NCBI GenBank assembly: GCA_021018995.1
Contig: CM037595.1
Location: forward strand, 78,121,159-78,185,158
Direction: 5' to 3'
Source: Chloranthus sessilifolius
Taxonomy: Eukaryota > Streptophyta > Magnoliopsida > Chloranthales > Chloranthaceae
Length of the DNA: 64,000 bases
The translations under genes and the position numbers were made by a program. Within the stretch, counting starts at the first letter, position 1. Every line of letters starts with the position of its first letter. This document shows, one piece after another, positions 9,101-55,507 of this stretch. The notes below the pieces were generated by a model. It had not been told where the DNA came from. It did no database searches and saw only the letters and a program-made list of their open reading frames with translations.

Positions 9101-12100
9101 CATGTATGCTAGCATAGATAAAATGGCTTGGAAAACAAAGGCCCTGTTTGGCAACCCTTTTCCAAAGTGCACTTTTCACGAGAAAAATGTTGGGTGAATA
9201 GCACTTTTCACCCAAGGACCTGGCCACCTCTAGCTTAAAATATGGTGTGATGTTGAGAAGCTTCCCCATGTTGCTTCTCACACAATACCAATTTCAGCAT
9301 TCTCACAAGACCTTTTTGAGAAACATCTTTACAGCACCTAAAAAGTGCTGTTGGAAAAGGGTTGCCAAACAGGGCCAAACATGAACAGATTCAACAGAAA
9401 AACCAATGTACCTTAGTCGCACTTTTCCTCATTATCGACTTATACCCTTCCTTATCAATCTTCCTAGCTTTATATAGAGGCATAAGCAACGATGCCACGT
9501 AATCCACAACAGCTTGTTTAATTTGCTCTGCTCCTTTTTTGTCATTTTCTGTTATACCTCTGCTTTCTGTAGCCTGTGAAGCAGAGATTTCTTCTGCCTG
9601 TTCTCCATACATCCCGACAAGTAGCTTTGATACCTTATTTGATTCTTCCTCATCCCTGATATGTATCGTTGGATCAAAAAAATCAGGATCAGCAGCTACT
9701 GCTTGTGACTGCCACCTCTCAATGGCATGATAGTCCTTTATCCCCCAGTTACCAGGGCTATCAACCCACGCTCTTGTTAAAAGACTACTATCTACAGCTC
9801 CACTTTCTCCCGAATGCTCTCTGAGATTCAAATGACATGCAATATCATTTGAATTGCTCCGCTGTGTATAGTTATCACCAGACATTCTTGAACTGTCGAG
9901 ATTGCCGCAGGCCAATGGGAAATCCACAGACCAATTCCTAACCCTGCAGTTTCTGGAGTCTATTTCGGATATGCAATCCTGTCTTCCCAAAGCACCGCCT
10001 GACCACTTCCGTCTCCTGAGGTCGGAGTCATCCATCTGGGCGTATTGCTCACGCCTAGCAAATTTGTGAAACGAAGGTATCTTTGGAAGCTCACGAAGGG
10101 TGTTATCTGCTTCAGAAGATGCATATGCCTGGAGAAAGTCACCAGCAGAGATGAGATTATCAAGACAATATATGGTAAAATAAATAGAAAATAAGGATTT
10201 ATAGAAGCTAGCCTAATAGGAAATTCGATCGAGTTTGAAATGAATTCGATTGAAAAAAGGAAGAACCGCCAACAGACTAATGAACAGAACCAAGTTACAA
10301 AACAATATCTTGTTTCCAGTTCAAAATAGGCAAACCTCTGCAGCTGCAAGGGCAGCATTCCGAGCTGCTTCTGCGGCAGCAAAGGCAGCAGCTTCTTCTT
10401 CGGAGATCGCAATGCTGCCACCCACCGTAGAATCCATACCATGTATAACATTGTGGGAATTTGACAAATTGAACCCGGATTTTGAGTTATTCAAGGCTTC
10501 TAACTTGACTGATGCGCAGGGCACTTTCTTATTGTTTGTGCCAGAAGGTGAATCACTTCCAGCAGTTGACGGAACCTGAATAGTTCCTCTACCATCTGAC
10601 GTTTCATTACGTAATGGAGGCTTTCCTGAGCTTAGAACTTTAGATTTGACTTTTGATGAATCAGCAACAATTGTTTGTCCCGGTATTTTCAAACCACCAT
10701 TGGCAGCTTTTTCCTTCCGGAAAACTTCAATCCACATGTTGACAAGCTGGCTTGCTACAGCTCGGATATCACGGCTAGTATGTACGCAAACTTTCTCTTT
10801 TACAGTCTTCCCAATACCTATACCAACAGGAAAAGGGGGAAAAGACCAAAAACCAGAGTCAATAGAAATCTAGCATTGCTAGTTGCAGATTTTGTTCCCT
10901 AGCAGATAATATAACAGGGAGTGCATGCAATTCAAGTAAATTTTCAGAAAATAGATGTAATAAGACTCTTCAGTCTGTAAATAAAAGATGACCCTCCCCA
11001 CTGATTTTGCAATATTCTGCAACTCCTCAGCAAGACATGATAAAAGCCATATATGTTGATAAATAGAGCAAAAAATGAAAAACATTTACACATACAATTG
11101 TAAAAGTAAATAAAGTGGCAAAGTTCTCAGTTCAATATTCAAGTTTCATTTGATGTGATGATGACATTACTCCATAATGTGGTGGTAAAGAAAAAACTTA
11201 GTTAAATGGATTTGAATCTGTGCAGAAAAAATAGGAGGCATTCCGTAGATTTAGAAGTGATCACTTGATGTTGAAGTTTTTGTGAGATCCCAAGTACGAT
11301 ATCTCCACATTGTAATTTTATGTCTTTTGGTCTTCTATTTTACACAAAGTCGACCTTATATTTTATTTTTAGGTTACTCTTAAAAGCTGCTTTATTAAAT
11401 GTTTAGTTAAAATAAGAAACCCAAGTGATACGTAGGAGTTGAGAGTACTAATTTAAAACTATTTTAGACTTTTTTTTATTATTCCAGAACTTTATTATTT
11501 CTGATTTTTATCAAGAAGACAGGTATTTTTCTTCGTTCTTCTAGTTCTCACTATTTGTTAAATTTTTTAGCTTGTTTACTATGCAATCGACATCGGGAAA
11601 ACTGCAGTTTGCATCATTGGTATCAGAGCTAGGTTATTTCCTACGGAGACCCTCACCAATTAATCAATGCCTTGATCAGTTAAACAAGTCAACCGAAGAC
11701 TAGATCTTCTAACGCATGTGTATAGAGAAGAATTGGAGATCAAGGATGCCATGGATGGCCATGAAAGCAACAATGTCCTGTCATTAACATCCATCATCGA
11801 CAAGGGGCTTCGAGACAATTTAGAGCCACCCAACGGTGTTTTTGGACCCTAAATTTACGTAATCAAGGTAGAAGCATGGATCAAAAATCGGATTTTTGAT
11901 ACGTATCGTCCAAACCTCCAAGACGATACATATCGCATATCGTCCGATTCATTCAATGTATCGGCGATACCTTGAATGTATCGTCCACTTCTCTTTTTTT
12001 TCAAATACCTTAAAATTCTGGGACATGGGTTAAAATTTCGCTCTACCGATATGTATCGTCCGAGCTCCAAAACGATGCGTATCGGAAATTCAATGTACCG

Positions 12101-15100
12101 GACGATACATTGAATGTATCGTCCGGGGCTTCCCATACAAACAGGACGATACAATACATTGAATGTATCGTATCGTCCTAGTCCAATACCGATACGTATC
12201 GGTATCGGACGATATTTTGACCCATGTTCTGGGACGAACAATAAATTGACCGATAATTTGGACTATACGGACGATAATTTGACTGTTTCTAAGAGGCAAG
12301 AGAAAAACCCTAAAATTCTGGGACGGACGATAAATTGACCGATAATTTGAACGATACATTGGATGATACGGACGATACAAACGATAATTTGACTATTTTT
12401 TAGGGGCCCCGAGAAAAACCCACTTTACCGTATCGTTCAGGTCCAACACCGATACGTATCGGACGATATGTATCGGTATCAGACAATATTTTGATCCATG
12501 TATAGAAGTGCCTATTTCTGTGGAAGATTCAATGTTGATGACTTTAGTGGTTGATTAAGTAAGATCGAGAATATATTTTATTTGAAAGAGGTGCCCAATG
12601 TACGTAGGGTCAATACTGTACCCGCAAAATTTTGGGGATGCTATCCGAGATGTCCAATCCAACCATATACAATGAGGAAAGAGACCAAGGGTGTGGGTCG
12701 CTACATCAACGATCTTCGATAGCAAATCCAAGAAGCGTTGGCCATACATGATATTTGGAGTGATGCGTATCGATGTTCCCTTAAAGCAGAAGAAATTCCC
12801 AATCAGAAGTCAGAACTACAATTAAAGGGGTGGTTTGGTAGCAGGCCAAGAGTTGATCATGGACCAACCCTCAAAAGGAGGGAGGAAGAACAGATTGGGT
12901 GACCACACCTCCACGATCATCCCATGCGTATGAGAATAAGTTCTTTACGTGTCATAAGGTAGGACATGGTTCCTTCAAATGTCTTAGGCAACAACATGGG
13001 GAACAGTTCAACCTATCATAAGAAAAAGAAAACTACGATAACAAAGCACAAAGACGATGTAGGATGGAGACGACTAAGAGGCAGGTAGAGGTGGAAATGC
13101 AAGAAGAGGATTGCATACAAATCATAATTGACGGAGGTAGCCAAGACACTACCAAAAATTGTGGATAAATTAAAAATGAAAGATGATGTGCATCCATATT
13201 CCTACAAGATCCATTCCTTTGGTTAGATAATGATAGAACTTTCTAGTTTTGTGGATCAATATGAACATGCATTAATATTGTTCAAAGAACTATAGATTCA
13301 ATTTCTACATTGTCGATACTGACTAATGTACTCTTGTTTGTAAACAACTTTTATGGGCTCCATATTAAACTGAGACTACGAACTTGATTTTTCATCTTGT
13401 GATTCCCAAATGCATCTTTTGAATGAAACAAAGCTCAAGAAAGAGGTGGACTTTTCATCCTAAGTAATTAGCATTACTATAACCAAACCCACCCCTAAAT
13501 CTTAGTTAATTAGTTGTTGGAACTTTATTTGCACCTTATTAATTGATATATTTCGATTTCCCCCTTTGATTGAATTAACCCTTTCGGGCCTTTAATTCTT
13601 CAAATCCTAGAGGAGTCGAGAGACGATATCGTAGTTGTCGCTTGGTGCCCTAAACTAGAACGAAAAATTGAGTTCCCTCGTCGGAGCCATTTTTCTTAAT
13701 TGAGAAATTTCAATGCATGTGATCGCTAGAATTTATTCAATCTAATTGTTTTAATTAAGTCTATTAAACTAGTTTATGTGATTGGAAAGTTTTGAATATT
13801 TCCGCTATTCAATTTAATCTGAAATTAATCTCAAATCCGCATAATTAGTTTGGCGTTTACCCTGCATCAATATCACATTCCAGTAACTTAAATGGAAATG
13901 TTCCAATAATATTCAAATGGAGCACTCATTTGGGATAGGATGTGAGAGATGGTGATCTATCCTAAAACTACACTAGCAGGAGGTTCGATATGATGATGGT
14001 AAAAAGGAGAAAATTAAAACCAAGAGACAGATGAATTTTTTCTTCATTCCAGCAGTAGAGGTAGACAAAAAGATTGGTTACTTTAATCGATTAATACCTT
14101 AACCAATTAATTGTCTACCAAAAGCATTCCTGGCACCTTATTCAGACCTTGGTTTGACCAGGCTTTTGAATGTTTCAACCTAAAACTAAGGTGGCAACAC
14201 CATTGATGGTCTTTTAGAACCACCTGGACTAACACCACCTACCACACAGTCAAGGGTAGATGCACATTGTGGGCAAACTATGAAACCACCTCCCAACATC
14301 TTGTCGAAGACAGATGACAGTACAAGTAAAGCTATTTGACCGTTGTTTCTTTGCAATTTGTCAAGGTTGGAATTTATTACAAAAATCCTCTTAAGGCATA
14401 AAAGAACTGAAAGCAGAGTTTCTACGTCATGCATATCTTTAACATATAATCAATCTAGTCACCATCATGGGTCAAAATATCGTCCGATACTGGTACATAC
14501 TTGTAAGGACCCAGACCAGCCTGACCCGACCATTTTCTTGGCCCAAACCAGGCCCAGACCCAACCAAAACCCCTTATAACTCCTTGTTGTTGCTGCTTAA
14601 CACCAAACCCTTTTCCTCCTATCCCATCTGCTGCAATCAGAAGCTTGAGCCCGAAACTCTGCTGCAAAGGTATGGAGTTCGAATACGTGCTACAGTCCAT
14701 CGTCGTCCCGACGACAGGCCGCCATCATCATACGGCCTTCTTCACGGCACCACCACCCCCCTCTGGTTATAAATAGGAGTCGGCCATCCCTTTTTCCTCC
14801 ACACTCCAAAGAAATCTCTGGTAAGGCATTCCGCCTCAGTTCTTCTTCTTCATCTTCTCTTTTTCTTTTTATTTTGGTCAGCTCAATCTTCGGTGACAAT
14901 CATTGGAGACGATCGTTGCCGTCCATTTCGACACTCGTGCGGCTGTCGTTACTAGGCGCGCCCTAGCGACCATTGTTCGCCATCGCGAACGGCGTCAACC
15001 CCATCGACGGCAATGCCGAACCCAACGACGAAATCCATTTTCCCTTTTTTGTGTTTTTCCCCTCTCTTCTCTACCAATCTCTTCTTCTTCCTCCCGTGCT

Positions 15101-15174
15101 ACCATCAACCCACGACCCCTTTTTCATCCATGTTTTGTCACAGGACAGTGACATTAAAATGCCTTTTTTATTTT

Positions 15175-15233
<59 letters not shown>

Positions 15234-18200
15234 CATACAAAGTATAAAGATTATATAATCCAGTTCTCCCTGTTTTGTCACAGACCAATGACCCTACAAC
15301 CCTTTTTATTTTTATATATATAAACATATAATACAAGGTATAAAACCTGTATATATACTTATTTATATATATGCTATATTTATTATTTAAAAACCTATTC
15401 TTTTATTATTTATTTTATTTTGCTATTAAAAATATAAGGGTTTAAAACCCATATGCTGTCAAGGACATTTTTAAGCCATTAATCAATTATAAAATATGTT
15501 ATAAATATATTTATCTATTAGTTTCATATCAGCCATATTATTATAAGATATATTTTATTTATTACGAATTATTATATTTATTCAAATTAAAAGAGCGGAT
15601 TTTTAATATTCTTCCGGCTTTAAATATTAGTTATTATTTGCTAATTATATTTTCAGTAATTTATATCTCGTTTAAATTTCTAATATTTGCTAAAAATATA
15701 TGTATCCATATTACGGGTAATGAAAACGAATTTGGCCCGCTTACCCCTTTTTGCAACCTATTTGGCGTCATGATACGATTTAATCATTCCTACTCTAATT
15801 GCGTCAACCCGTAGTTACACCTCTCATTTCTGAAACTTGATCATCATAGTCGAGACCCTATTGGCTAACCTTCCCGTGAATCGACTCAACCTCTAACTCA
15901 TACCTCTCACGTATTCATCCAACTTTTTCGTCGAGTCATCGCTTAGCACTAACACACCCTTGTTCTCGTGCAGGTAACACTTTGAGCAACCCGAGCTTCA
16001 ACCACCCCCATCACAATCACCAAGGAAGCGAACATCAAGGAAAGTGAGCTACCCTTATCACCTTGTTCTGTTTAATTAATTAGTACTATTTAAATACAAT
16101 GTATATATACAAGTACATATAACCCTATAATTATGAATTGAAACTCTTAGGTAGTGTGATACATCTACGAGACATTATTGTATGTTGATATTATAAATAT
16201 GTGAGTATACTTATATAAGAACTTGTTCTTTTAACTCTGCACAATCATGATTGATAATTGAAATTTCTGTATAAAGTTAATCGTAGTTCAATTCTTGATG
16301 GCATACCTAGCATGAACATACAATTGATCATATGAGAAAGCAAAGTATAGTATGATTTTTATCATAAACTGGTGTAGAAAGAATAATTATGAAAATTGAT
16401 TGACCGTAGTGTGTATTTCTTTTTGAAAAGCATCATGAAACACTATCTTGATTATGGAAAGCATCAATTATTGAACAAAGGATTTTCTATTGCATACGTT
16501 GTGCATGAACAAAGGATTTTCTATTGCATATGTTGTGCATCTATATAATTATATGATACTTCTAGTGTGGATCCCCCATTGGGTAGCATGGATTTAGGAT
16601 GAATGTCCATGTTAGTGCTTCCATATATGAAGTACATATTGCCTACCGCTCTGCTATGGTAAGGTGTGAAATTCAAATATATAATGTGATGTGGTAAGGA
16701 CCACCTGAATAAGAGGTGAAGTCCAAAAGGGTCACATGTGGCTGTACCATGGACCCGGTACTATAGTAGTAGAACCTACACCTATAAATGTGTAGCCGTT
16801 GAAATTAAGTTATTTTCTTTTGTTTTCCTTTCAAAGAAAAACTCCATGTTCTTTTATGCATACATCTCATTTCCTACTTGATGATAATCGCAAATGCAAT
16901 GCTTTGAGAACTAAATAGCGAATTTGAATATATATACAACATCTACTGAAATCAAAGGAATACTCATAAATGAATTTTGTCTCTCTCATTGATTATTAAG
17001 ACGTAGATTACTAGATATTATTAGAGATCCACTTGTTGAGTTTATCTCACCCCGTAGTTAATATTTCAGTGGCGGATCGAGTTAACCTTCTTTTGGTTTG
17101 TAATAGTGTTCACGATGAACAAGGAATCGTAACAATGGTGTACCCTTCTTTTGAATTTATGAATGAAATATCAGGTTATGTATTCTGTTTAACCTTTTAG
17201 TTGTGTTTTGATTATTGAATTTGCTCACGCACCGAAAGTTGCGGTGTATTGGATTTTGGGGCGTGACAATACCGGTATCGGTGGTCACTAGTACGATACT
17301 TTGAATGTATCGTACCGACGCAGTGCATATATTTGGGGAATGCACTGGATGATACATTCCAATGTATTGTCCAAGACCGGTACGTATCGTCTGGTACATA
17401 CCGGAATCGGAGTTGGACGGAACGTACTGGAAAACAGGTCTTTTAACCAATGGTCACCATAGAATAAGATAACAACCTTCCTAAATGCAATAGACACTAT
17501 GATTGAGAGTGTTTTATCTAGCAACCCTACAAGACTATAATTAACTAATGTGTCTAAGAACATATGAGCAAACGAGGATTTATGCTTAATAAACGAAAAT
17601 TTATAGTTGTCCAATGTACTAATGAGATCATGTTCCCGAAGATAACAAATAAGTCAGAACTAGGAGAGTGGATACCGGACAAACGGACAGCAAGTAGATC
17701 AGTTGATACAAGCACAAGCAAACGAACACAATGACGCAAGAGCTGGGTACCATCCTTCCCCATTGAATCCTGTAGTAAATTGAAACAGAAAAAATGTGTT
17801 AGCATTTTTTATGGACGAAGAAAATATTCAAATATGAGAAACTAGCACGTAGCAGACTGATGTCAGCTAATAATTTATAAAGGAAGTGGAAGAAGGCTGG
17901 TAGTAGAAACTAAACACATAAATAAAAATTGAGAGAGAGAGAGGAAAAGATATTAAAATACCCTTATCCATGAGTTGAGAGTCCTGAGTCCCTCTTTGGT
18001 CCCGGCAAAGGACTTCAGAACTTCCACAGGAAGACGCAATAACTTTTTAGCCAGATGTAATCGTCCAGCAGCAGTCATTGCATTAAAGAACATATCCCGT
18101 AGTAAAGCCTCCTCAGTCAACCTCTTCACACCATCCAAAGAATTCTTGCACAGATTATTAGAAAGCTCAACTGCATCAAGCCTCTTTACCAAGTCACTCA

Positions 18201-21200
18201 CTTCATTTCTTTCATTGTCTAACTCTCTGTGTGCAGCTTCCATTGCCTCTACTTCTGCTGTATAATCATTTCCAGTACTCAGGATATCAATTATGCGTAC
18301 TGCTTCTCGTAGACCACTCATCATTGCACCACCAACAGTGTCCGGGTGCTCTTTGCAGGTAGCTTCACCAGCAAAAAATAAACAATTCTCAACAGGCCTC
18401 CCCAAAATATCATAGTCCTCCCCAGAAGCTCCTACAGCAACGTAGGAGTAAGCTCCCCTGCTGAAAGGATCTCTCCCCCAATTGGTTAAAACAGAAGCAA
18501 TTGGATCTGGTACAGAAGCCTCGCCAAAAATGCTACGAAGAACCAACAGAGCATGATTCACATGTTCAGATGCACTCATATATTGGCCATCGATAGCTGC
18601 CTTACCAACCACAAGTGCTATCAGAACAGGAGCTCCAACAGTTTTCTTGACATTCCAGAACATAAAGCATTGACCCCTGCACCCAGTTTCCTCTGCAGTT
18701 GCTCCAAAGTAATCCACCGTAGCATCCCAAAAAACTTCTGGAAATTCCAGTACCACTTTATTCAGCACACCAAAACCAAGTCGCTGGATAGACAACTGTT
18801 TCCATTCAGGAAGAACTGGAGAGAACTTGATGGCATTCGCCTTTAAGCACCCTAGAGGCACAGTGATCAGAACAGCATCTCCTACAAACACACTACCACT
18901 TGACGTGTGAATGTTGACTACGCTTCCCTGACCATGAGCTCCTGCAGAGTCCATGCCATATGTGACTTCTGTAACAATTTGGTTCAAGTGAACACGGAGG
19001 CCTTGTCCTAAAGCTTCTAAAACAGTGCTGTAACCCCCCTTAATCATACAATGAGCTCCTCCAAATCCTCCGTAAACATCATCTTGATTCCAGTAAGGAA
19101 GAGATACCTCCTTAAGCAAAGCAGCACAACCATATTCCAAGTTTGCAAAATGCCAATTCATCACTCTCCTCTCAAGAGGACTCAAAATATTTTCCAAACT
19201 TCTACTTTCACCCAGGACTCTGTTGTCATCCCCATTTGTCAGTTTGGTATCAAATGAGGCATTCACTGAAATATGGGAAACTTCAGAATCAGAAACCTTA
19301 GGCTCATCAGATTCCAAAGCAGTAACCATTGATTGAGGCACACGGGTACGGCGCTTCCTCAGTGCATATTCTAATCCATCCTCAAGTGACATCCGCATTG
19401 CAACTTCGCAGTTTTGATCCATGAATACAACCATATCATCAAGGAGACTGTTATATTCTGCTTCCAGAGCTTCATCCAGATCCGAAGGAACCTTCTCACC
19501 CGTTACAGTATCATACAGAGGGCACTCGCTGTTCAATACGGTCAACTCAAGACCTAACTGAGCACAGAGCAAAGACGAAGGGTCTGGTCTTCTTTCTGTT
19601 GTCATGTCAGCCTCAACACCAGTAATAATGCTGGCACCGAGATCAACAGGTACAGAAAGTGAAGTGCGGTCTGTATAAACCCGACCACCTATCCTGTTCC
19701 GAGCCTCAAGAATCACGACGGAAAAACCTTGGCGCTGCAAATGGCGTGCTGCAGTTAAGCCAGCAGGACCAGCTCCTATAACTATTATCCTTTTCCCAAC
19801 TTCTGAATCATACTGAGTACCATTGCCGACCTCCAAAGGATTTATTGTAGTAGATTGAATTCCAGTAATTTTGGCATCCATAGCCTTTTCTTTGCTGATA
19901 TCAATGGATTGAAGCTTACTGTGAGCATCCACAGCATCCAATCTACCATCCAACGCTACAAAGGATGGATCATCATTATTATCCCATTTAGTCATTACAT
20001 TTGATACTTGAGCATCCCTGCAACCATCATCCTGGTCACTCGGTTCATATGTCCACGACTCACTCCCCAAATGGACTTCTAAATCTGAGTTCCTATTTAT
20101 CAAAACAGTTTTTTCACTAGTATCTATATGCATATTATCAACCGCGCATTCTGCAGGCTCTCCAATAGTGGATAATTCTGTTTGCGTGTTAGAAACAGAG
20201 AGTTTCTTGCTTCTTACATCTTTAACAACTGATGATGACCCATTATTCTTTGCTACGATAAGATTATCTGAATTCCTAACATTAGCGAGAATAAAGGGAG
20301 TGTCGTCATCTGAATCAGAAACTCTGCCCCGAAAACTATCCACAAGCATGTTCTCTTTAGAAAGTTTCAAATGAGACATAGGACAAGGTCTGGCCACCTG
20401 TTTTTCCGAAGCAATGCCTACATTTATATAACCCTGTCAAAAACTTGTTAGAATTTTGAATGGCATATATTATACCAATGTTTGTATAACAAATAAGAAA
20501 ATAAAAAGAAGTGCAGAAGATAGAGATACTTCCACGCATAAAACTAAAAGTATATTAAGAGGATACAGATAAGACTGGAATAAACTATTTGACCCAGAAG
20601 AAAAAGAAATAACGTATCCAAATTAATATTGAAGAAAAAAAAAAAAGTTAAACGCCATCCCCTCAGCATTACCAAGCCAAATGATGAACAAGCAGATGTT
20701 CTAAATGAAGTCTCAGACTGTAAAGCTTCAAGAGTAGTAGCCAATTTAAAAAGGAAGAAACCCAACCCAAGTAATTTGCTTACTAAGTCACCAATCAATC
20801 TCACAAAAAAGCCACTTTGCTTATTGTAATGGAAAATATTTGCATGCTTCCGAGGGAAACTTACTCTGTGGTCAAGAAATGCATAAATCTCCCTTATAAG
20901 GGATGAGCGTGGCAATTCATTTTCTAAAGGGGCTTCAGTTACTCCACAATCTATCAGTGGGAGAATGCGGCTCACATCTTTGTTCCAAAGACCTAAGATC
21001 AAATTCCTGCAAAAGGTAATCGCATAAATCCAAATTAAATTAACCTTAATTTGTTGATCACCAAGCCGTCAAGTCCAAGAAACCAATAATACAAAAGATT
21101 GGGTTCATATTCCAAAGATAATACATACAAACTACGACTTATTATTGAAAAAGTAAACCAAGATGCATTTGTGGTAAAAAGATAATACAGACAAACTGTG

Positions 21201-27200: not shown

Positions 27201-30200
27201 CCTAAGTTGTAGGGTGCAAATAACTTCACAAGAAAAAAGGGTTGCAAGTAAAACCAGCCTAAATTAAAACTATAACCCCAAAGCCCCTCTTGCCCTAAAC
27301 CCCAAAACCCTCTTCCCTTTCCACTCCTCGGGTGGCTGCGGCTCTCCGACAACTACTCCCCAACGACAACCCTCCGAACCCTCGGGCGACGGCCAGATGA
27401 ATTTTTTATTATTGTTTCTTCTTCTTCCTCTCTTTTTCTTCTTCTTGTTCCTCAATTTTTTTTTCTTCTTCTGTTTTTCTTCTTCTTCCTCAGATTTTTT
27501 TTTCTTCTTTTGTTTTTCTTCTTCCTCCTCCTCAAAAAAAAAAAAAATTTCTTCTTCTTCCTCATATTCTTTTTTTTCTTCCTCAGATTTTCATTTCTAG
27601 CATTTCTTTTTTCTTATTCTTCTCTTTAATTCTTTTTTTCTACGTCTTCTTATTTTCTTCTTCTTCTTCCTTCACTCAAATTTTTTTTTTTTTTTGGAAT
27701 TTCTTTTTTGTTCTTCATTTTCAGATTTTTTTTCCTCACATCTTCTTATGTATTAATGTATATGGTTCTTGGCTTTGCTTAAGCACCTTGGCGGCCAAAT
27801 CATGAAAATCCACCCAACCAGAACCATGAGACATAGTAGATATAGGGTCTAGTTTAGAAACCTTGGACTACCTGGAGCATAGTAACAGACTTCGGTTTCG
27901 ATAGTATTTCAGTGGGGTTGTTTCGACTCAATTCAAAATCGAAAAGCTATATATGTCAACTTTTTTGGTGAGAGATATACTTCAATTGGTCTAGATCTAT
28001 CAAAGTCGGTGCTAGTCAACCCATTTTTAAAACATTCTACTACATATGATTCAGAGTTAGTATTAAGTCTATGGAATCATGCATCACATACAGTGTCTGT
28101 GTGTGTATATGATAGCCTGATAGATGCTTCATAGGCACTCTTGCTTCTTAAATTTTTTTAAATTGCACTTCTCCACTCTCGCTTTCGAATTGTCTTCCAC
28201 TCCCTCTTCCACATCATGCAACTAAGCTCCAAAGTCAAAGAAGAGCCAAGAGCAAGTCAGATGGACGCATTTCCTCAATCAAAACAAAAAGAAATCGAGA
28301 AATCGAGAGGGGTCAATCTGATAGACCCTAGATCGATCATTACTAGGATAAGAAGCGCCCCAGTGTCGCAGTTAAGCCCAATCTATCCCTTAATTGGGTC
28401 CATGGATCAAAATATCGTCCGATACGTATCGGTTTTGGACCATAACAATACGGTAAAATGGGTTTTTATCGCCCCCCTTAAAAAACAGTTAAATTATCGT
28501 TCAAGGTATCGTCCGCATCGTTTAATGTATCGTCCGCATCATTCAATGTATCGTTCGTATCGTCCGTATCGTTCAATGCATCGTCCGATAATTTCAAATT
28601 ATCGGTTTTGATGTTTTTTTTTTTTTTTTTTTTTTTTTTTGGGGAAAAAACCGGAAAGTATCGTCCGGAACCGATACGTATCGGTTTTGGGGCTGGACGA
28701 TACGTATCGAAAAACCGAGATTTTGATCCTTGATTGGGTCATTTGGGTCGTAGTATTGAGGAAACACCCAAATTGTCTTGATGCCCTCATATGTATAGGC
28801 CATTGAATCGCCGGACAACTGAGGCATTTTGGGTAACCATGGTCGTGGACCAGAAGATTGGGATGACATATTGGTCGGATCTGAGGGTGGTTAGAGAACC
28901 ATGCATTCCAAGCTCTAAAGCATTTGCCTCCAATGGACAAACCATGGCAAAAGTCATCCATTTGGCCCTAGTTTAATCTAGGCAACTTGCCACTCGCCTC
29001 CAAAGAACAGCATCATCGGAACCAGGAAACCCAAACACTGAGAGCCATGATAGAAAATTTTTGGACCAATTACTTAAAAGAGGAAAGAGGCTGAAGAGGG
29101 CGAATCAATGTTCGGGGTGTCATCCAGAAAATCTTTGGTTAGAGTTGGGTGTTCCCAAGATCGCATGGGGGACTTGTTGGCTTCTTGCGATCATGGTGTT
29201 TTTACTGGAGTTAAGAGGTCTTTTGAAGAGCGGCTATTTTTGTTGTTTGATAGGCCGTTTGGTTAGAAAGAAATGATAGGGTATCTATTGTCTTTGTCAT
29301 TAGAGAGGCAAGGAACTGGGTTTTGAACTAGGTTAAACTTGTCAATGATGTTGCAGTTGGGCTTGAGAGAGAGCTGGATCATACTTGGGATGACTTACTT
29401 GTCGTGAGGGCGTGGTCCTGGCTAGGAGGGTTCCCTGCTCTGCTGGGATTTGTCCTTTGAGGCGTAGGTGGTTTTATTTTTTCCTTTGGGGCTGGGTTTT
29501 TCTGCTTTTTCTTGCTTTTCTCTTTTGTGGGTTTTTATGCCTTGCACTTTAATCTCTCACTACCACACAGTGACACAGGTATCTCTCTCTTTCCTCTCTC
29601 CTCACTTCTAATATAGTGCTGTTTCAAGGACAAAAATAAAATAAATATAATAAAATACAAAAATTATATATTAGTATAATGATACATTTTTATGGCTTGT
29701 CTTCTAAATTTTCTACTGACTATTACAATTTTTCTTGTTTAAGTCTATTGGCTTTTTTGTGTTTAAAAAAAAAGGAGGCATACACCTCAAATCTCCGCCT
29801 CCTGAGGGGTCTAAGTCTAAGACCTCGCCTAATGCCTCTACCTTTTAAAACATTGCTTTGGTAGTAGATCTCGTCAAAAACACAGTTACAGAAATTTCAA
29901 GGACCCTGAAATCTGTAACATTTTTTGCCATAAATCCCATCAAAAGCTGGTTCACAAGAATTCCACACTCCTAAACTCTATAACATTCAATTTTTCACAA
30001 GATTTACCACTATGAAGCGCATTTACCAATAGATCCCCTGAAAAACAAATTAAAACAAATCAAGGCCTCTCAAATTGGTAGCATTTTTAAAGATAGCAGT
30101 TAGCATAGTTAAGATACGAAGAGCCTTTTGGCGTAGATTCCATTACAAGCAGCATTGCATTAATTCAAGACACTTAAAATCCTCAACTGTCAGCTTTTGA

Positions 30201-32081: not shown

Positions 32082-32159
<78 letters not shown>

Positions 32160-35100
32160 AAGTTCAAGAAAGAGAATCAGATATGGACATGCACCAAAGC
32201 AAAAAAGTTCCAGCAACTCCAAGTAATAACATCATGCTACTAGGTTCAAGAACAAGAGACTAATTTATATTTTAGCGCTATGAGTATACAGCAGATGGAA
32301 CACAGATAGAGATATGTAAATGTAGAATATGTAAAAAGGTTTAATAGACTCCAGGATTATGAAAAGACAACCAACCTGCATTCCAAATACTCCTGAAGCC
32401 CACCTCTGCGCTTCAAGAGTTCCTTGAATTTAATTTTTTCAACTGGGCCAACTGCATGAGCTTTAAGCCCGGCTGCTACGGCTGCTGCACCTCCATCATC
32501 AGCCTCGGACAGCATATTTGAAGGTGAATCAGATTTATCCTTAGTTCGGATAGACCAATCTTCATCAGTGGCAGGATTATTACTTTCAAAAAACCCTTGC
32601 TGCTGCATCAAAACTTCCCAATCGATGTCCCCTTCGTAAGCCATATCACCATGCCGGCGCTTTTTAATCTTGCGCACTTCCCTCTGCATTGTCAATAGTG
32701 TCTTTTCCTTAATTTCAGGATCAGATGCCTTTCCTGGATCCTCTGAATAAAACTCTTTATTAATTGGGACAGAAGATGGCTCTTTTGAGGCATCAACTGT
32801 AGATGAAAACCTTAGGTTAGCTGAATCACGCTTTTGACTTAAGGTAGTTGAATCCACTATCAGTCCACAGGAAAATTGATTGAATACATCACCAGTGGGT
32901 GCTAGTTCCTCTTTGGGACACAAAGGGGTAACAAAATCAGATTTTTCATCATCAATTGAAGGTGACACTGCCATAGTTGTATCAGAAAATCTCTTTAATT
33001 CATCACCAGTTACCCTAGTTTGCTCTATTTGCAAGTCGACAGGAGCTGGGTGTGGCTTCGTTTCTGTAACAATTAAGGAATCTCCAATGGCTACATCAAG
33101 AGTTTCTAGCAAACCATCCGAAGAGCTGTCGGTTTCTTCTTTCTTCACTGTACCAGAAGCAGAAGAGGATGTTTGAAGTAGAACAAACTGAGGATCTTTT
33201 AAAATTCCATCAGAATATTTATCGAGTCCATCATCAGGTAGAAGAATGTCCCCTGCCTTCATTGGCATAGAATTAGGAGGAAATTTTTTAACTAGAGAGG
33301 ACAAAGAATACTTTAAATTTCCACCAACAGGTGCTCTGAGTTCATCATATCCTGTGCCTTCCGTGGCCTCATTTTTACTGTAACCAGAACAATTATCAGA
33401 GTCTGGAGCGCTCTCTGTATCCATTTTTTCACAGGGCCCATTAAACGGAGAACCATTGAAGCAAGAAGAGGGGATTTCCTTTCTTGGCACAAGGTCGGAA
33501 GCAGAGCAAGGTTTCAGAATTGCACTCGAACTCCGGACTTCTGGAAAACAATCGGATGGTCGATTCAACCCATCATCAGAACTGATAGTATCCTCTGTTA
33601 TCTTGACAGCATTAACAGAACATGGATTTTGAACCTGGATACAAGTACCATCAGAAAATTTGTTCAAAAAGTTATTTGTTTCTGGGTGCTCCTCGGCATG
33701 CAGTAGGACAGCTGGACCGGACATGATAACAAGGGATGATGATAAATCTACCGAAATTTCATTGGGATGTTCGTTCAACCTATTGTCATCAAACCCACTA
33801 GTTTCCTCCTTGTGTATCAAGTCGGAAGCAAAATTTGATGTTTTAGCTATATCATATAATGGATCACTTGATTTTTCATCAAAATATTTCTTTAAACCAT
33901 CCTCACACTTGTGCACTTCCTCTGTAAGCTTCACTGGTACCTCCGTAACCTCCGGGAAGGAATCGGAACCATCAAATGAAGCCGTTCTAATAAAATTCGG
34001 ATTTCTACTTGAGCCATCATCAGATCTTTGATTTTCAACTGTGCCCTTTGGAACTATATCAGAGAAGGTTTTCCCGACACCAGCAGGGAGAGACTCTTCT
34101 GAATTTTCATTAGAAGCTTGATCCAACTGCTCATCAAATTTAGTGTTCCCCTCTTGTAATTTTGCAACAGAAGCACGACGTGATTTCCTCTTCGAAGTTC
34201 CATCGGAGAGCGGTATAAACTTGCCTTCAGATTTTACGATTTCTTTTGTCAATTTCGAAGTAGATGGCGAATGGGGTCTCTGGCCTAGCATGGGAGCTAA
34301 ATCAGTCGATATCCCATCGTTTTTCCGTTTCTGGATAGACATCGAACGGGCTTTCCTAACCGAACATGAATTGGACTTCCGAACAAACTCCGACAGTGAA
34401 AGTTCCAAATTATCATCAGAAGAGTGACCAACACTCTCACCAAACCCTAAATCTCCCTTTTTCTGTTCTTCCAAAGACGTCAATTGAGATTTCTGAATCC
34501 CAGACGCATCCACCATCTTCTTCCCCGTCAAAGCACGGCGAGATTTTCTACCCCGCTTTTTCACAGAATCTTTCAGACCCTCTGGTCCTGCCCCATCTTT
34601 CAAAGACACGATCGAAGATTGATCAGAAGCTCCTGACTCATCTAAACGTTTTCTACCTAATACCTTATCAGAAGCACACCTAGGTTTTCTAACTAGCTGT
34701 TGCACAGAATCATTCAAACTCTCATCCAAAATCGCACTGGGCAGCCCTGCCCCGTCTTTCAAAGAAAGTCGTGCTTCATCCTTTTCCTTGACAACACCAG
34801 ATCCACCACCTTTAACCCGCTTTGGAGCCTTCAATTTCTTCTTAAAACTTGCCAATGTGTCCTCCATCTCACCCGAATCTTCTTCTTTAACCCTAGGTTT
34901 CTCCACCCCAATCCTAATTCCGCCATTGTCACCAGAAGTAACACTCTTCGCAACCCTAATCCCGCCATTGTCACCGGATATAACACTCTTCGCAACCGTA
35001 ATCCCGCCATTTTCACCAGATTTAACACTCTTCGCGCCACAACTGCGAGGCCGCTTTCTCAACTTAAAGAAAGATCCAATCGGTTCGTCATCGTCACCGA

Positions 35101-35293
35101 AATCGGCTTTCATCTCCAACGGTCTGGATCCTGATTTCTTATCGAAATCAACCACCTTATTCTCAACACCCATTTTTGCATAATCTGACCTAGTGTTTGA
35201 AAACCCTAACTTCAATCCTTCATCCAAATCAAATAAAACAACACCTTTTTCTCCAATCCCTCCCTTACCAAGTAAACCCCTTTCATCGTTCAT
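5788..35293 (-). CDS. LDL3: LDL3-type (KDM1C) LSD1-like histone demethylase, 8 coding exons
   Basis: Exons (minus strand, 5' to 3'): 35293-32376, 21006-20865, 20433-17962, 17769-17676, 10817-10336, 10128-9412, 9044-8970, 5853-5788. All introns are GT-AG, phases agree, and the 6,966 nt encode 2,321 residues. Residues 1-950 are charged and low in complexity. SWIRM lies at about 955-1031. The amine-oxidase domain is at about 1235-1735, with FAD motif GAGPAG (1240-1245), a lysine in LNKVVLEF (about 1579) at the place of the conserved LSD1 lysine, and C-terminal FAD motif LFFAGEATC (about 1706). An Ala/Glu-rich segment spans 2015-2036, and an SRI-like module spans about 2236-2313. Family knowledge: Arabidopsis LDL3 removes H3K4me2 from transcribed gene bodies in the nucleus, coupled to elongating Pol II. 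The ATG is fixed by an in-frame TGA 12 nt upstream. The protein is longer than Arabidopsis LDL3 (about 1,600 residues), mostly in the N-terminal part. No break was seen, so it is probably functional. Confidence 0.93.
6109..6179. repeat. (TA)n-(GA)n microsatellite in LDL3 intron 7
   Basis: About 24 TA units run directly into 11 GA units. It sits inside intron 7 (5854-8969). Confidence 0.9.
6582..6625. repeat. Hairpin-forming palindrome in LDL3 intron 7
   Basis: TTCCCATTTTTCATAT is followed by a TA run and the complementary ATATGAAAAATGGGAA, giving a stem of 16 bp or more with a TA loop. It may be the core of a small fold-back element. Confidence 0.65.
7342..7441. repeat. Direct duplication, 59-bp period, in LDL3 intron 7
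   Basis: AAGGGGTCCCTAGGACCAAG followed by TC(T/G)TAGAGATC and CCTAGG occurs at 7342 and again at 7401 with few changes. The unit is itself partly palindromic (GGTCCCTAGGACC). Confidence 0.8.
7577..8046. repeat. Simple repeats: (TG)n at 7577-7600, (TC)n-(TA)n at 7999-8044
   Basis: Two microsatellites in LDL3 intron 7, with no gene between them. The rest of the intron up to 8969 holds an inverted repeat around 8232-8274 (GCACTTTAACATGGACC and its near-complement) and a GT/GC-rich alternating stretch at 8648-8702. Confidence 0.8.
8970..9044 (-). CDS. LDL3: LDL3 exon 7 (25 codons), SRI-like helix
   Basis: Encodes VMDQSTEAEKVMSVSEFLDF and KRRNK. Acceptor is TTATCAG and donor AAG|GTTTGC, both phase 0. 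It fits between exons 6 and 8 in the conserved LDL3 C-terminus. Confidence 0.9.
9140..9376. mobile_element. Young MITE with long perfect TIRs in LDL3 intron 6
   Basis: A 26-bp perfect terminal inverted repeat beginning GGCCCTGTTTGGCAACCC bounds 237 bp. The pairing continues imperfectly inwards (AGTGCACTTTT against AAAAGTGCTGT). Flanks AAA on both sides suggest a 3-bp duplication, and the GGCC-TGTTTGG end resembles Tourist/Harbinger. The identical arms point to a recent insertion. It fills most of the 367-bp intron. Confidence 0.85.
9412..10128 (-). CDS. LDL3: LDL3 exon 6: linker and first part of SRI-like module
   Basis: 239 codons running from AYASSEADNTLRELPKIPSF to KSIMRKSATK. Most of it is polar linker. 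The last 40 residues (VVDYVASLLMPLYKARKID..) begin the SRI-like helical bundle. Donor AAG|GTACAT (9411) lies only 35 nt from the edge of an inserted MITE. Confidence 0.92.
10336..10817 (-). CDS. LDL3: LDL3 exon 5
   Basis: 482 nt. It opens IGKTVKEKVCVHTSRDIRA and contains ASQLVNMWIEVFRKEKA, a helical block reminiscent of a TFIIS N-terminal/LW-type module (inference). It ends in an Ala/Glu-rich helix (EEAAAFAAAEAARNAALAAA). Acceptor is TTGGTATAG and donor GAG|GTTTGC. Confidence 0.9.
11875..12500 (+). mobile_element. CATGG MITE copy A-outer (contains copy A-inner)
   Basis: Starts CATGGATCAAAAATC and ends ATATTTTGATCCATG. Flanking 8-mers ggTAGAAG and taTAGAAG are a degraded target duplication. 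The interior is made of CGATACGTATCG, GTATCGTCC and CGATAATTTG words. Without the nested copy it is about 415 bp, close to copy B (401 bp). It sits in the gypsy fossil of LDL3 intron 4. Confidence 0.88.
12024..12226 (+). mobile_element. CATGG MITE copy A-inner, inserted in A-outer
   Basis: CATGGGTTAAAATTTCG ... GATATTTTGACCCATG, 203 bp, flanked by an exact 8-bp duplication TTCTGGGA (12016-12023 and 12227-12234) made from the sequence of the outer copy. This proves one family member jumped into another. Confidence 0.92.
13471..14465. other. LDL3 intron 4 filler, nothing recognised
   Basis: AT-rich sequence without coding potential or clear repeats. It is perhaps further remnants of the retroelement to the left. 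Confidence 0.4.
14502..17268 (+). mobile_element. Solo LTR (Ty3/gypsy type) inside MITE copy D
   Basis: 2,767 bp from TGTAAGGACCCAGACC to TTTTGGGGCGTGACA, with 5-bp flanks ATACT and ATACC (a target duplication with one difference). The GGGGCGTGACA end is common in plant Ty3/gypsy LTRs. An LTR promoter is likely at TATAAATAGG (14767). No internal coding region and no second LTR are seen, as expected after LTR-LTR recombination. A (TA)n tract lies at 15179-15234. Confidence 0.75.
15179..15234. repeat. (TA)n microsatellite
   Basis: About 28 uninterrupted TA units within the solo LTR. Confidence 0.9.
17676..17769 (-). CDS. LDL3: LDL3 exon 4 (94 nt)
   Basis: Encodes DSMGKDGTQLLRHCVRLLVL through DLLAVRLS, a block conserved in LDL3 orthologues. 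Acceptor is TTACTACAG. The exon ends on the first base of a Gly codon before GTATCC and joins exon 5 across 6.86 kb of intron filled with transposable elements. Confidence 0.9.
17962..20433 (-). CDS. LDL3: LDL3 exon 3: end of SWIRM and whole amine-oxidase domain
   Basis: A single 824-codon exon opening GYINVGIASEKQ. About 190 residues of acidic linker come before the Rossmann motif VIGAGPAGLTAARHL. The catalytic domain then runs to SGLREAVRI, followed by a coiled-coil-like segment (EAAHRELDNERNEVSDL). A hydrophilic insert of about 60 residues sits between EYALRKRR and SPLERRVMNWHF. I did not identify a clear counterpart of the human LSD1 Tower there. The exon ends ..TGGATAAGG at donor GTATTT. 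Confidence 0.94.
20865..21006 (-). CDS. LDL3: LDL3 exon 2: SWIRM domain core
   Basis: A 142-nt exon encoding NLILGLWNKDV through IREIYAFLDHR. One base completes the Arg codon split by the 11.4-kb intron 1. Acceptor TTTTGCAG and donor AGA|GTAAGT are both strong. The hydrophobic helix pattern and the closing FLDHRGYINVG, continued in exon 3, are typical SWIRM sequence. SWIRM domains bind nucleosomal DNA or partner proteins. Confidence 0.92.
21599..21999 (+). mobile_element. CATGG MITE copy B in LDL3 intron 1
   Basis: CATGGATCAAAAAATC ... ATATTTTGATCCATG, 401 bp, with exact 8-bp duplications CCCAAGAT on both sides. The interior repeats GATAAATTGACCGATAATTT and CGATACGTATCGG. It is collinear with copy A-outer. 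Confidence 0.93.
22790..23385 (+). mobile_element. RTE-clade LINE, 3' fragment
   Basis: Translated in mixed frames, the stretch shows the conserved end of plant RTE reverse transcriptase: EDVSNRIN near 22818, an ILYGT-like motif near 22950, MRMLRG near 23016, then WGEAV-like and CEVRE-like blocks. It ends just before the Pack-type element. It is decayed, 5'-truncated, and lies in LDL3 intron 1. Confidence 0.7.
23413..25059. mobile_element. Harbinger/Tourist-type element with possible captured host sequence
   Basis: Subterminal inverted ends GGTTGTGTTTGGGAATGC and, inverted, GGCCGCATTTGGGAACGT, with an exact TAA target duplication at 23410-23412 and 25060-25062. Arms are rich in GGATTTGGA (left) and TCCAAATC (right). 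At 1,647 bp it is long for a MITE. The centre (about 23990-24480) looks like a host promoter, leader and first-intron region: a GA repeat, TATAAATAAGG, then T-rich sequence. No transposase is seen. Confidence 0.75.
25255..26290 (+). repeat. Possible LTR-derived fragment
   Basis: A stretch with LTR-like composition: GACGTCCGTGG-type repeats, a TATA-like CTATAAAGAATAC (25630), then a long leader with CCGAACCCTAG and a C-rich tail. No matching partner, primer site or target duplication was found, so the call is tentative. Confidence 0.3.
26689..27021. mobile_element. Fold-back element with ~135-bp inverted arms
   Basis: The left arm (26689-26824) and right arm (26873-27021) are imperfectly complementary over their whole length. 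Shared blocks include TAGATCTTGAGATCATG, CCATGTGTCA, ATGGCCC and CCATTGAT. A 48-bp loop separates them. Exact ends and a target duplication could not be set. Long arms suggest a Mutator-like or fold-back origin. Confidence 0.6.
27397..27745. repeat. CT-rich (CTT)n polypyrimidine tract
   Basis: About 350 bp of CTTCTTCTTCCTC and T runs on the plus strand. The 67-codon open frame across it (poly-Phe/Ser) is an artefact of composition. Just upstream (27060-27245) GGGTGCAATTAA-like words repeat several times. Confidence 0.85.
28401..28732 (-). mobile_element. CATGG MITE copy C in LDL3 intron 1 (reverse orientation)
   Basis: CATGGATCAAAATATCGTCC ... TTTTGATCCTTG, 332 bp, with exact 8-bp duplications ATTGGGTC (28393-28400 and 28733-28740). 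The left end matches the inverted right end of copies A and B, so the orientation is opposite. It contains a 26-bp T run and repeated ATCGTCCG(T/C)ATCG words. Confidence 0.93.
29265..29540 (+). mobile_element. Possible L1-type LINE 3' end
   Basis: Reads like the tail of a plant L1 ORF2 (ERNDRVSIV.. then WDDLLVVRAWSWL) followed by a T-rich 3' region. It is heavily decayed, and the identification rests on similarity of style only. Confidence 0.35.
30440..30665 (-). mobile_element. Two L1-like LINE 3' tails
   Basis: Two related stretches (about 30445-30520 and 30590-30660) share TTATTAATAT..GCAG, GAGAATACA and ATCAATGCC(A/T)AAAGGCA. Read on the minus strand they resemble plant LINE 3' ends finishing in ..AATATTAATAA. 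No coding part is attached. Confidence 0.4.
30868..31075 (+). mobile_element. L1-type LINE reverse-transcriptase fragment
   Basis: One frame gives PIKCLGLPHGLGAIIWERIL then KRVETRLATWKGTLTFSRKD. This is the diagnostic thumb region of plant L1 ORF2 (family pattern LPxKYLGLPLG..W..W). A following KSVLSSL-like piece is in another frame. It is a short fossil in LDL3 intron 1. Confidence 0.7.
31464..31501. repeat. 38-bp near-perfect palindrome
   Basis: GGCAGCATCCTGTACACTTA and its inverted complement are joined without a loop, with one mismatched pair. Centre GTACACTTAAGTGTAC. It would form a strong cruciform or RNA hairpin in LDL3 intron 1. Confidence 0.8.
32085..32157. repeat. (TA)n microsatellite, 36 units
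   Basis: Uninterrupted TA run in LDL3 intron 1, about 220 bp from the exon 1 donor. Confidence 0.95.
32376..35293 (-). CDS. LDL3: LDL3 exon 1: start codon, disordered N-terminus, start of SWIRM
   Basis: 972 codons plus two bases of a split Arg codon. The product is rich in Ser, Asp, Glu and Lys, with basic nuclear-localisation-like clusters (for example KLRKRPR near residue 77) and no recognised fold until the last 80 residues. There GDIDWEVLMQQQGFF and FKELLKRRGGLQEYLECR match the conserved lead-in to the LDL3 SWIRM domain. The exon ends ..TGC AG at the GTTGG donor (32375). A 42-bp tandem repeat encodes residues of about 87-128. Confidence 0.92.
34919..35040 (-). repeat. LDL3: 42-bp coding minisatellite in LDL3 exon 1
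   Basis: Three in-frame 14-residue repeats, pattern AKSV(K/I/T)SG(E/D)NGGI(T/R)(V/I), at residues of about 87-128. The 42-bp spacing is exact between units (34921, 34963, 35005). Confidence 0.85.
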
Positions 35294-35314
35294 ATGGGTT
35301 TCTTCTCAGCCAAG

Positions 35315-35495
35315 CTAACAAAATAATAGGCGCACGTTAGCAACTTCCTTGCGTTCCAGAGAAATACTAATACTAATAAAATAAAATAAAAATTGCATGG
35401 AAACAAGAACAAAGAAAACAAATCTGTTTATGAGGTTTCAAGTTTTTTCTTCTTCTAAGATTTATATTTGGAGAAAGATTAGAAGAACCCTTACC
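35315..35495 (-). other. LDL3: Probable 5'-UTR intron of LDL3
   Basis: On the minus strand the donor CACAG|GTAAGG (exon end 35495) and a pyrimidine-rich acceptor TATTTTGTTAG (AG at 35316-35315) bracket a T-rich 180-bp stretch just before the start codon. This fits a short leader intron. It is an inference from splice consensus alone, and the transcription start is not identified. Confidence 0.5.
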
Positions 35496-35822
35496 TGTGT
35501 ATTTTGAGCTCGCTCTATTCTGTAGCTCGTGGATCTGTCGAAAAAACCAGGGGTGCGCACGTTAAGCGAAGCTTATGAGTTCGATGGTCGGACCTCGACG
35601 AGAGAAATGTTTAAAAGGGCAGCTTTGGTTGAGATGTTATTCGGCATTTAGCCGGAGCAGCAAGGATAGTGTTAGGTTCATCTGTACCACTTGTTGCGTT
35701 GACCTCCATCAATCTAGATCGTCCACTTGAAAGATCTCTTCGATGAGTTATAATAAGGTAATAAGCTTTAACACTAAGAAAGGTGTACATACCCTCTCTG
35801 TGGATCTCTAGTTCTTCACAAA

Positions 35823-35945
35823 GGGCTGTCAATGGGTTGGGTCGGGACGGCCCGATGTCCAATCCGTTCAACCCAAAAAAGTTATTGGGGCGGACTCATA
35901 ATCTTGACCCGCCATTTTCTTATGGCCTTTGGGTCGACTAGACAA
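35823..35945. mobile_element. hAT-like MITE remnant
   Basis: Opens GGGCTGTCAATGGGTTGGGT, a typical left end of plant hAT-derived MITEs, and is rich in GACCCG and CGGCCCG words. The right end is not resolved. The rest of 35496-36143 shows nothing else. Confidence 0.45.
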
Positions 35946-36143
35946 AGATCACATTCACTTCAAGGAATAGGTTTTATATGCAAATTTCACTTTACATGTA
36001 AAATTAACTTTCAAAAATAGGGCAGAAGTCTCATTCCATGCTTAAAAATTCCAATTCTTTCACAACATTTATACATTGTAAAATGCATTTTTTAACAAGG
36101 AATTCACTTTATTACGAAGTGAGCGGCCTGAAAAGTTTCTTTA

Positions 36144-36353
36144 GGCTGCGGTTGGGTTAGCTCTGTTAGGGCAAAGAGCAGCTCTTTTGTTCTTTGACTC
36201 TCGGAGATAATACATTTCCTTGCCCCATTTGCTCTGGCGGAGAGGTATTTTAAGTGACAAAATTGCTTTATGTCAAAACAGATTTTATCTATTGTGATAG
36301 AGCGTAGATATGGAGTTGTTTTTGCTCTTATAAGAGCTAACCCAAATACAACC
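36144..36353. mobile_element. Tourist-like MITE, copy 2
   Basis: Ends GGCTGCGGTTGGGTTAGCTC and GAGCTAACCCAAATACAACC, with an exact TTA target duplication at 36141-36143 and 36354-36356. It shares the GAGCAG-rich interior with the copy at 1647-1873. Confidence 0.85.
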
Positions 36354-37031
36354 TTACAATTATACTTTAGATTAGAATGATCTTAACCATATATTTTACT
36401 ATCATCCGCCCCTTATCACGGATATGTCTAAATTTGATGAAAATATTTCTACTTTTCATCTACACCATTATGTTTGACTCTACTGGTTCATATTTCAATA
36501 GTCCCAATTTTGGACCGTTGATTACGTAGTGGACCCTTGAGCGTTACGCACTATAATCTTTTAATGTACACATCTAACAAACTTTTATATATTTACAATA
36601 TCTAACGTTCTGTATTATAAATGCTTCAAAGCATGCATATACACTAAACTACAAAGCCCACACATGCATAAACGTCATCATTATTGTAGGTCCAAAATAT
36701 CAACAAAATGAGATTGATACATTGAAGACTGGGTAACATAAAAGCATGAAAAAGAACCTAGCTACTACAGTTGCATATAAAGAGCAATCATGGCCGACTA
36801 AGAGCAACGAGAGTTAAATTTGAGTTGCTATACACTAATTTAGCTACTGCTACAGTATTTTAGCTACTGCTATAGTAAAAATCACTCCAACAGACACTCT
36901 ATTTTAATTATTTTATTATTTAAAATATTATTTTTCATTCTTGTTTTATTATATTTTACTACCAACACTCAACTTTTAAAAATTCAAATTCTCTAACGGC
37001 AATATTTTTACAACGGTCATATTTTCGAACG

Positions 37032-37227
37032 CAAGGTGTCAAATCGGTATCGGTCTTGGGTATCGGAATGCTCGGGATTGATACAAATCAGCCGATACCG
37101 ATACGTATCGGTCAATTATTAAAAATAAAATAAAATAAATACAAGTCTCGGTCGAAATCGAGATGTATCAGCCGCTTTCGAGTTGGATACCGATATGTAT
37201 CGGCATCAGCCGATTTTTTATACCATG
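37032..37227. mobile_element. CATGG-type MITE copy E in the Harbinger 5' region
   Basis: CAAGGTGTCAAATCGG ... GATTTTTTATACCATG, 196 bp, with 8-bp flanks TTCGAACG and TTCAAACG (one difference). CCGATACCGATACGTATCGG is its core. It is a diverged relative of copies A-D. Confidence 0.8.
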
Positions 37228-37479
37228 TTCAAACGGTCATATTGTTTTGTAACGGCTATATTTTTTTAATGGTCATATTTTCCTGTAATGATTATATTTT
37301 CCCAACAGTCATATTTTTCTATAACTATATTTTTTCAACGATCATATTCTCTTAACAGAAATCAGATTGGTCTATAAATATGTCAATCTATTCTAGTATT
37401 TCATACAATAAAATATTATCTCTTTTTAGCAAGTTCGTACGCTAATTCTCTACATCATTCATTTTTCACTTTCGCTCAA

Positions 37480-49212: not shown

Positions 49213-49342
49213 CTATCTTGACTAATTTTATTATTATTATCAATTTAGTATTTAATTTCCATTATTTATTTTTTCCATTGAATTGATCAATTTAGGATTT
49301 AAGGTTTAAATTTTTTTTTTTTTTTAATATTTGTAGATTGAA

Positions 49343-55400: not shown

Positions 55401-55418
55401 CGGCTTCGACTTTGACAT
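52413..55418 (-). pseudogene. DUF1985 / Ulp1-like protease cargo gene of the MULE
   Basis: Convergent with the transposase. Pieces from 5' to 3': DUF1985-like region (55418-54451; RKFYMHCNEERKRMLDESIF, then ADISLILGLNM), an acidic coiled coil (54473-54099), a Pro/Leu-rich linker (53856-53632) and two short blocks (53412-53167, 53088-52816). The C48 SUMO-protease domain comes last (52781-52413), with catalytic His in HHYWALAI, Asp in LLDPAD, Gln in LQKNGWDC and Cys in DCGVFV. The catalytic set is present. Several pieces differ in frame. Some breaks may be introns (array 2 lies in one), and at least one, near 54460 in an A run, looks like an indel. Confidence 0.8.
53909..54035. repeat. Palindromic minisatellite, array 2
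   Basis: About six units of GATAGCGG(A/T)CCGCTATCC(C/T)AG between coding blocks of the Ulp1 gene, the same unit as arrays 1 and 3. Probably intronic. Confidence 0.85.
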
Positions 55419-55507
55419 CTTAGTATATGTGAAAGGAACTGCATAGAACGTATTTAAACATAATTATTTATTTTTATTAAAAATCTAAAATTAATAAATA
55501 GAGTATA

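Follow-up and report, generated by a model that had tools for sequence, protein, structure and literature searches.

A hAT-like family of miniature transposable elements in Chloranthus sessilifolius and a coding DUF659-type element with the same ends

A 64-kb stretch of the Chloranthus sessilifolius genome (hereafter the window; C12:78121159-78185158, 39.7% GC, from a host genome of 2.17 Gb in 32 contigs) carries six copies of a family of miniature inverted-repeat transposable elements (MITEs). These are very probably hAT-superfamily MITEs, namely non-coding, internally deleted derivatives of a 5-7 kb DUF659-type hAT transposon that are moved by its transposase. The copies share their ends, are bordered by 8-bp target-site duplications (TSDs), leave recognisable empty sites where later insertions have interrupted them, belong to a family found genome-wide, and have the ends of a longer, coding element. 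The first-pass annotation of this DNA had read them as hAT MITEs, and both the 8-bp duplications of copies elsewhere in the genome and the hAT segments of the same-end element lend support to that reading.

MITEs of the hAT superfamily with 8-bp duplications are common in plants. The family described here is an abundant one that can be linked to a coding hAT element of the DUF659 type, a domain listed by Pfam as of unknown function, and it marks insertion sites by the thousand and supplies a definite pair of MITE and coding element.

Six copies in the window and their flanks

The boundaries originally proposed for all six elements (Table 1) are exact to the base, and the two length classes first given as about 200 and 330-415 bp become 196-215 and 332-415 bp once nested insertions are removed. 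The description of the ends as CATGG-type holds for most of them, but F starts with CAAGG, one end of E is likewise CAAGG, and one end of C is CATTGG. The terminal inverted repeat (TIR) measures about 12 bp, with arms identical at 12 of 12 positions in A and D, 11 of 12 in Ain and E, 10 of 12 in C and 9 of 12 in F; with A and D taken as plus, E lies on the minus strand. The copies are non-coding in that five frames of 120 or more amino acids overlapping them, when scanned, gave no Pfam match; one of these frames lies inside the probable solo long terminal repeat (LTR) within C.

Table 1. Coordinates of the MITE copies and of other features in the 64-kb window
Feature	Position	Strand	Description
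MITE copy A	11875-12500	+	long class, 415 bp without nested copy; flanks 11867-11874 / 12501-12508, 6/8 agreement
MITE copy Ain	12024-12226	+	nested in A, 203 bp, short class; TSD TTCTGGGA at 12016-12023 and 12227-12234
MITE copy C	14466-17452	+	215 bp without LTR; oriented oppositely to Ain; TSD GTCACCAT at 14458-14465 and 17453-17460
Probable solo LTR in copy C	14502-17268	+	2767 bp, TGTAAG...TGACA; 5-bp flanks ATACT/ATACC, 4/5 agree
MITE copy D	21599-21999	+	401 bp, long class; TSD CCCAAGAT at 21591-21598 and 22000-22007
MITE copy E	28401-28732	-	332 bp; TSD ATTGGGTC at 28393-28400 and 28733-28740
MITE copy F	37032-37227	+	196 bp, most diverged; flanks TTCGAACG/TTCAAACG, 7/8 agreement
LSD1-like amine oxidase exon	17953-20436	-	E 1.6e-85; best solved relatives are LSD1 chains
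MULE transposon remains	49337-51409	+	DBD_Tnp_Mut E 4.2e-13, MULE domain E 3.3e-21
Ulp1-type peptidase C48 segment	52413-52811	opposite to MULE remains	
DUF1985 and plant mobile domain matches	54451-55419	-	one frame

When the flanks of the window copies were tested for identity at 5-11 bp, exact duplications were found only at 8 bp, and no copy is exact at 5-7 or 9-11 bp. The four exact and two degraded duplications reported by the first-pass annotation are reproduced, with 8/8 agreement in Ain, C, D and E, 7/8 in F and 6/8 in A. Among random placements in the window, agreement is 8/8 in a fraction of 4.5e-5, 7/8 or better in 7.7e-4 and 6/8 or better in 6.5e-3. Copy F inserted into a local tandem repeat (36989-37351, with units around AACGGTCATATTTTC), where agreement of at least 7/8 also occurs at 25 of 3721 offset pairs; its duplication is thus weaker evidence, because the repeat gives such matches as well.

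Two of the copies contain later insertions, each with a recoverable empty site. Removal of Ain and one TTCTGGGA from A leaves 415 bp that align to D with an ungapped junction, and removal of the 2767-bp insert from C leaves 215 bp that align to Ain, again ungapped at the junction. Judged from its TG...CA ends and its flanks, this insert is probably a solo LTR.

A seventh copy in the window was sought with profiles of A, D and E and of Ain, C and F; none turned up there, nor among the single-copy matches listed, and the remaining BLAST matches in the window are short only (16-42 bases). A TIR-like match at 19407-19423 was rejected as a further copy, as it lies inside the amine-oxidase exon. The apparent clustering of the copies around one gene is not significant; a hand estimate that counts five independent places within 25 of the 64 kb gives p near 0.09.

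The family across the genome

A 25-base family end, CATGGRTCAAAATATCGTCYGATAC, has 5147 exact matches in the genome (2557 + 2590), while the reversed control has 0 + 0. This number of ends, together with the lengths of 196-415 bp in the window, the TIRs and the TSDs, is that of a MITE family. Genome searches scored only the best candidates (40 of 3863 for D, 40 of 2347 for Ain, 40 of 2702 for E and 40 of 1351 for F), and the family counts are lower bounds. Among the scored candidates, the best genome copies of Ain are 98% identical and the best D copy outside the window is 89% identical; the former value suggests recent movement.

A set of 71 distinct full-length copies, 38 Ain-like and 33 D-like, was chosen by similarity; it corresponds to 77 rows minus six repeat fetches of the same place, with partial matches excluded beforehand, and includes the D and Ain copies of the window. 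Their lengths are 159-437 bp. Exact 8-bp duplications flank 48 of the 71 and agreement reaches at least 7/8 in 63, with no copy exact at 5, 6, 7, 9, 10 or 11 bp. Five copies agree at 5/8 or less, among them L023, which was given a wrong boundary (its true end, at 517 bp, yields 8/8). CATGG is present at one end in 64/71 copies and at the other in 52/71, some ends being CAAGG. The first-pass annotation had proposed that copies be collected from the genome and inspected for just these features, and the collected copies have consistent 8-bp duplications and mostly CATGG ends.

A second set, overlapping the first at nine loci, was drawn by one end alone. Of the first 30 loci so listed, 25 have a partner end and a duplication of at least 7/8, exact in 20, over lengths of 60-517 bp; a 26th partner (L040, 6/8, 690 bp) is weak and was counted as a miss. 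The duplications themselves are not random in composition. Relative to the flanks, the 48 exact ones favour T at position 2 (27 cases, p 1.2e-4) and A at position 7 (29 cases, p 5.5e-5), and the 20 exact ones of the end-selected set, which partly overlap these 48, have T at position 2 in 9 and A at position 7 in 14. The preference of hAT duplications is nTnnnnAn, a consensus absent from the one paper checked, and set against it the T2/A7 preference of the family is hAT-like.

The length of the duplications also bears on whether the copies might instead be MITEs of Mutator-like elements (MULEs), moved by a MULE transposase such as that left in the window at 49337-51409. MULEs are indeed present in the window, as the DBD_Tnp_Mut and MULE domains attest, and MULE duplications, usually 9 bp, are sometimes 8 bp. 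Nevertheless, 0/71 copies are exact at 9 bp as against 48/71 at 8 bp, and the long element with the same ends carries hAT-type segments, which together render a MULE origin very improbable.

The interiors of the copies contain arrays of the words TATCGTCC and GGACGATA, arranged in a largely inverted fashion. Exact word counts over the six copies are 13 forward and 2 reverse in left halves and 3 forward and 7 reverse in right halves, a contrast that is weaker when one mismatch is allowed (17 forward and 7 reverse versus 8 and 13). A perfect palindrome of at least 12 bases, CGATACGTATCG, is found in five of the six window copies, C being without it. TATCG and CGATA words number 43.7 per kb in the copies, whereas outside them the window has 1.18 per kb. 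Although such short palindromes and the internal tandem repeats are what a dispersed, palindromic satellite-like repeat with fortuitous flank matches might display, the probability of this explanation is negligible: an exact 8-bp flank is expected by chance at 4.5e-5 per placement and is seen in 48/71 copies, and copy A has an ungapped empty site. It is the 8-bp duplications that refute a satellite-like repeat.

Window copies are 55-63% AT, and their ratio of observed to expected CpG is 1.33-2.47, versus 0.72 elsewhere in the window. The same holds in the genome, where the median ratio is 1.91 in the 33 D-like copies (flanks 0.64) and 2.08 in the 38 Ain-like copies (flanks 0.86). Transition rates at CpG compared with other C/G sites are 0.142 versus 0.085 in the D class (1.7x) and 0.051 versus 0.055 in the Ain class (0.9x); CpG decay in the family is weak, but copies chosen by similarity are biased toward few changes. 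As single-stranded DNA, the four copies tried fold more stably than their shuffles (z of -10.7 for Ain, -4.6 for D, -4.15 for F and -2.9 for E). It is conceivable, if unlikely, that CCGATACGTATCGG and the inverted TATCGTCC/GGACGATA words form a platform for transposase binding that is kept rich in CpG; on that reading the family could insert or persist in unmethylated DNA close to genes, and methylation of its own binding sites could act as a switch on its movement.

A coding element with the ends of the family

For five of the 30 end-selected loci, 1.5 kb of sequence contains no good partner end. The long interiors of four of the five (L013, L019, L030 and L036) are similar to one another, for example at 88% over 984 bp. 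Reading inward from L036 led to a right end at C1:5535636, with the terminus CAAGGGTCAAAA (read inward) and then GATTGGAT. The element thus delimited, C1:5529047-5535636, is 6590 bp long, bears the 12-bp ends of the family and has the exact 8-bp duplication GATTGGAT on both sides. Two of its eight scanned frames exceed the Pfam cut-off, one matching DUF659 (PF04937, E 8.3e-17) and the other Dimer_Tnp_hAT (PF05699, E 8.7e-5); the other scanned frames gave no Pfam match over the cut-off. The recognisable coding pieces sit in separate short frames in the one copy read, and among the elements of the family the hAT dimerisation domain was found in this one only. An autonomous hAT with these ends had been named in the first-pass annotation as something to look for, and what was recovered is an element with the DUF659 and hAT dimerisation segments whose autonomy is only putative. 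In the left part of the element, C1:5530502-5530932 comprises 14 copies of a 30-bp AT-rich tandem unit.

A search with the left arm (40 scored of 2237 candidates), paired by eye with 150 DUF659 places, gave one clear pair, which was used. This second element, C9:119236263-119241624, is about 5.4 kb long and has both 12-bp ends with a DUF659 match inside; the DUF659 place lies 1.2 kb beyond the scored left arm at C9:119236263, and its right terminus is the same as that of the 6590-bp element, at 93% identity over 236 bp. A further, 4.3-kb candidate at C1:11981168-11985489 was rejected, as it comprises two separate MITEs around Copia-like sequence (Copia by reading only). Over C1:11981068-11985589 the two family MITEs stand about 4 kb apart with the Copia-like frames between them, and the left MITE is flanked by CTATGAAT on both sides.

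The window copies resemble the two ends of the 6590-bp element individually. Copy A matches its right end at 81% over 110 bp and its left end at 85% over 75 bp; the order is inverted, since the numbering of A runs in the opposite direction. For Ain, the left-end match is 100% over 38 bp and the right-end match 70% over 111 bp. Matches to the two ends are 94.7% over 38 bp and 74.6% over 126 bp for D, 91% over 34 bp and 85% over 34 bp for C, and 82% over 44 bp and 84% over 38 bp for E. Both ends of the coding element are therefore matched by A, D, C, Ain and E (5/6), and such two-ended similarity is what would be expected if a longer element had lost its interior. The full-length relatives would make a transposase that recognises the 12-bp terminal repeat and, putatively, the subterminal TATCGTCC/CGATACGTATCG arrays; through the shared ends this enzyme would act in trans on the MITEs, which would be cut out and pasted elsewhere with an 8-bp staggered cut.

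Movement of these hAT MITEs mainly by another hAT family in trans, with the DUF659 element sharing only ancestry, is a less plausible account and a rather doubtful one. The genome is rich in candidates for such a role, with 6301 first-look candidates for DUF659 and 4130 for PF05699 (150 of each were scored and all 150 exceeded the cut-off), and identity among short copies is as high as 98%, whereas only short, separate coding frames are seen in the one coding copy that was read. In addition, none of 39 sampled hAT-domain loci has a good match to the family end in the downstream stretch read (1.0 kb in 20 and 0.9 kb in 19), a span too short to exclude family ends; this says nothing against other hATs, because about 1.4 kb separates the dimerisation domain of the coding element from its end, more than such a stretch covers. 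What speaks against another hAT family is the two-ended resemblance of A, D, C, Ain and E to the DUF659 element, whose ends differ from each other.

Several observations count against derivation from the DUF659 element or against hAT membership itself. The flanks of copy A agree at only 6/8, F matches the coding element at its left end only, and the flanks of the second coding element agree at only 3/8; in this last case either the duplication has been lost or the two ends come from separate insertions. The usual hAT terminus starts YARNG, from which the CATGG of most family ends departs at position 3, whereas the CAAGG of some ends fits. The 0/39 result belongs with these points as well, although it says little either way. 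Derivation from a DUF659-type hAT transposon nonetheless remains by a wide measure the most probable origin of the six copies.

Comparison with described elements and other features of the window

The closest parallels by description are BniHAT-1 and BniHAT-2, hAT MITEs of Brassica nigra that have TIRs of 25 and 12 bp, 8-bp duplications and hundreds of copies (PMC7385995). The Chloranthus family is like them in its short TIRs, its 8-bp duplications and an assignment to hAT on that basis. BniHAT-1 and BniHAT-2 are 666-673 bp long with 70-75% AT and 331-434 copies (PMC7385995), a comparison by description and not by sequence; the Chloranthus family differs in its lengths of 159-437 bp, its 55-63% AT, its dense CpG and its more than 5000 exact ends.

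Like DUF659-containing hAT-type transposases, the 6590-bp element unites PF04937 and PF05699. Within that type, the present family is marked by CATGG/CAAGG ends of its own and by the TATCGTCC/CGATACGTATCG arrays. The combination of a short TIR, an 8-bp duplication and repeated subterminal words is also that of Ac/Ds and other hATs with subterminal arrays bound by transposase. Compared with Ac/Ds, the words of the Chloranthus family include the perfect palindrome CGATACGTATCG, in 5/6 window copies, and their binding is putative.

A literature search for sequence strings found the words of the family in no transposon paper, a search for CATGG ends with hAT MITEs found no paper, and a search on DUF659 in hATs or MITEs found no paper containing the word DUF659. 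Novelty was judged from papers and not from repeat libraries, and the family may already have a name. Two matches in a viral collection (L001 and L002) were set aside: by estimate they are about the chance number for 17 fixed pattern bases, and a model search of L001, maybe of both, gave no match.

Between copies C and D lies the LSD1-like amine oxidase exon, which the two copies flank, probably in introns. Beside this exon, a SWIRM match below threshold occurs at 20544-21068 on the minus strand (E 0.0025). Further along the window, past the MULE remains, the frame with DUF1985 and plant mobile domain matches and the C48 peptidase segment perhaps belong to a single mobile element, and a perfect 40-bp palindrome, starting GGATAGCGGACCGC, is found at 53918-53957. 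Finally, positions 34909-35034 hold three 42-bp tandem units, the second 88% and the third 86% identical to the first; these lie within a long minus-strand open frame (32357-35305) and therefore correspond to an in-frame protein repeat of 14 residues.

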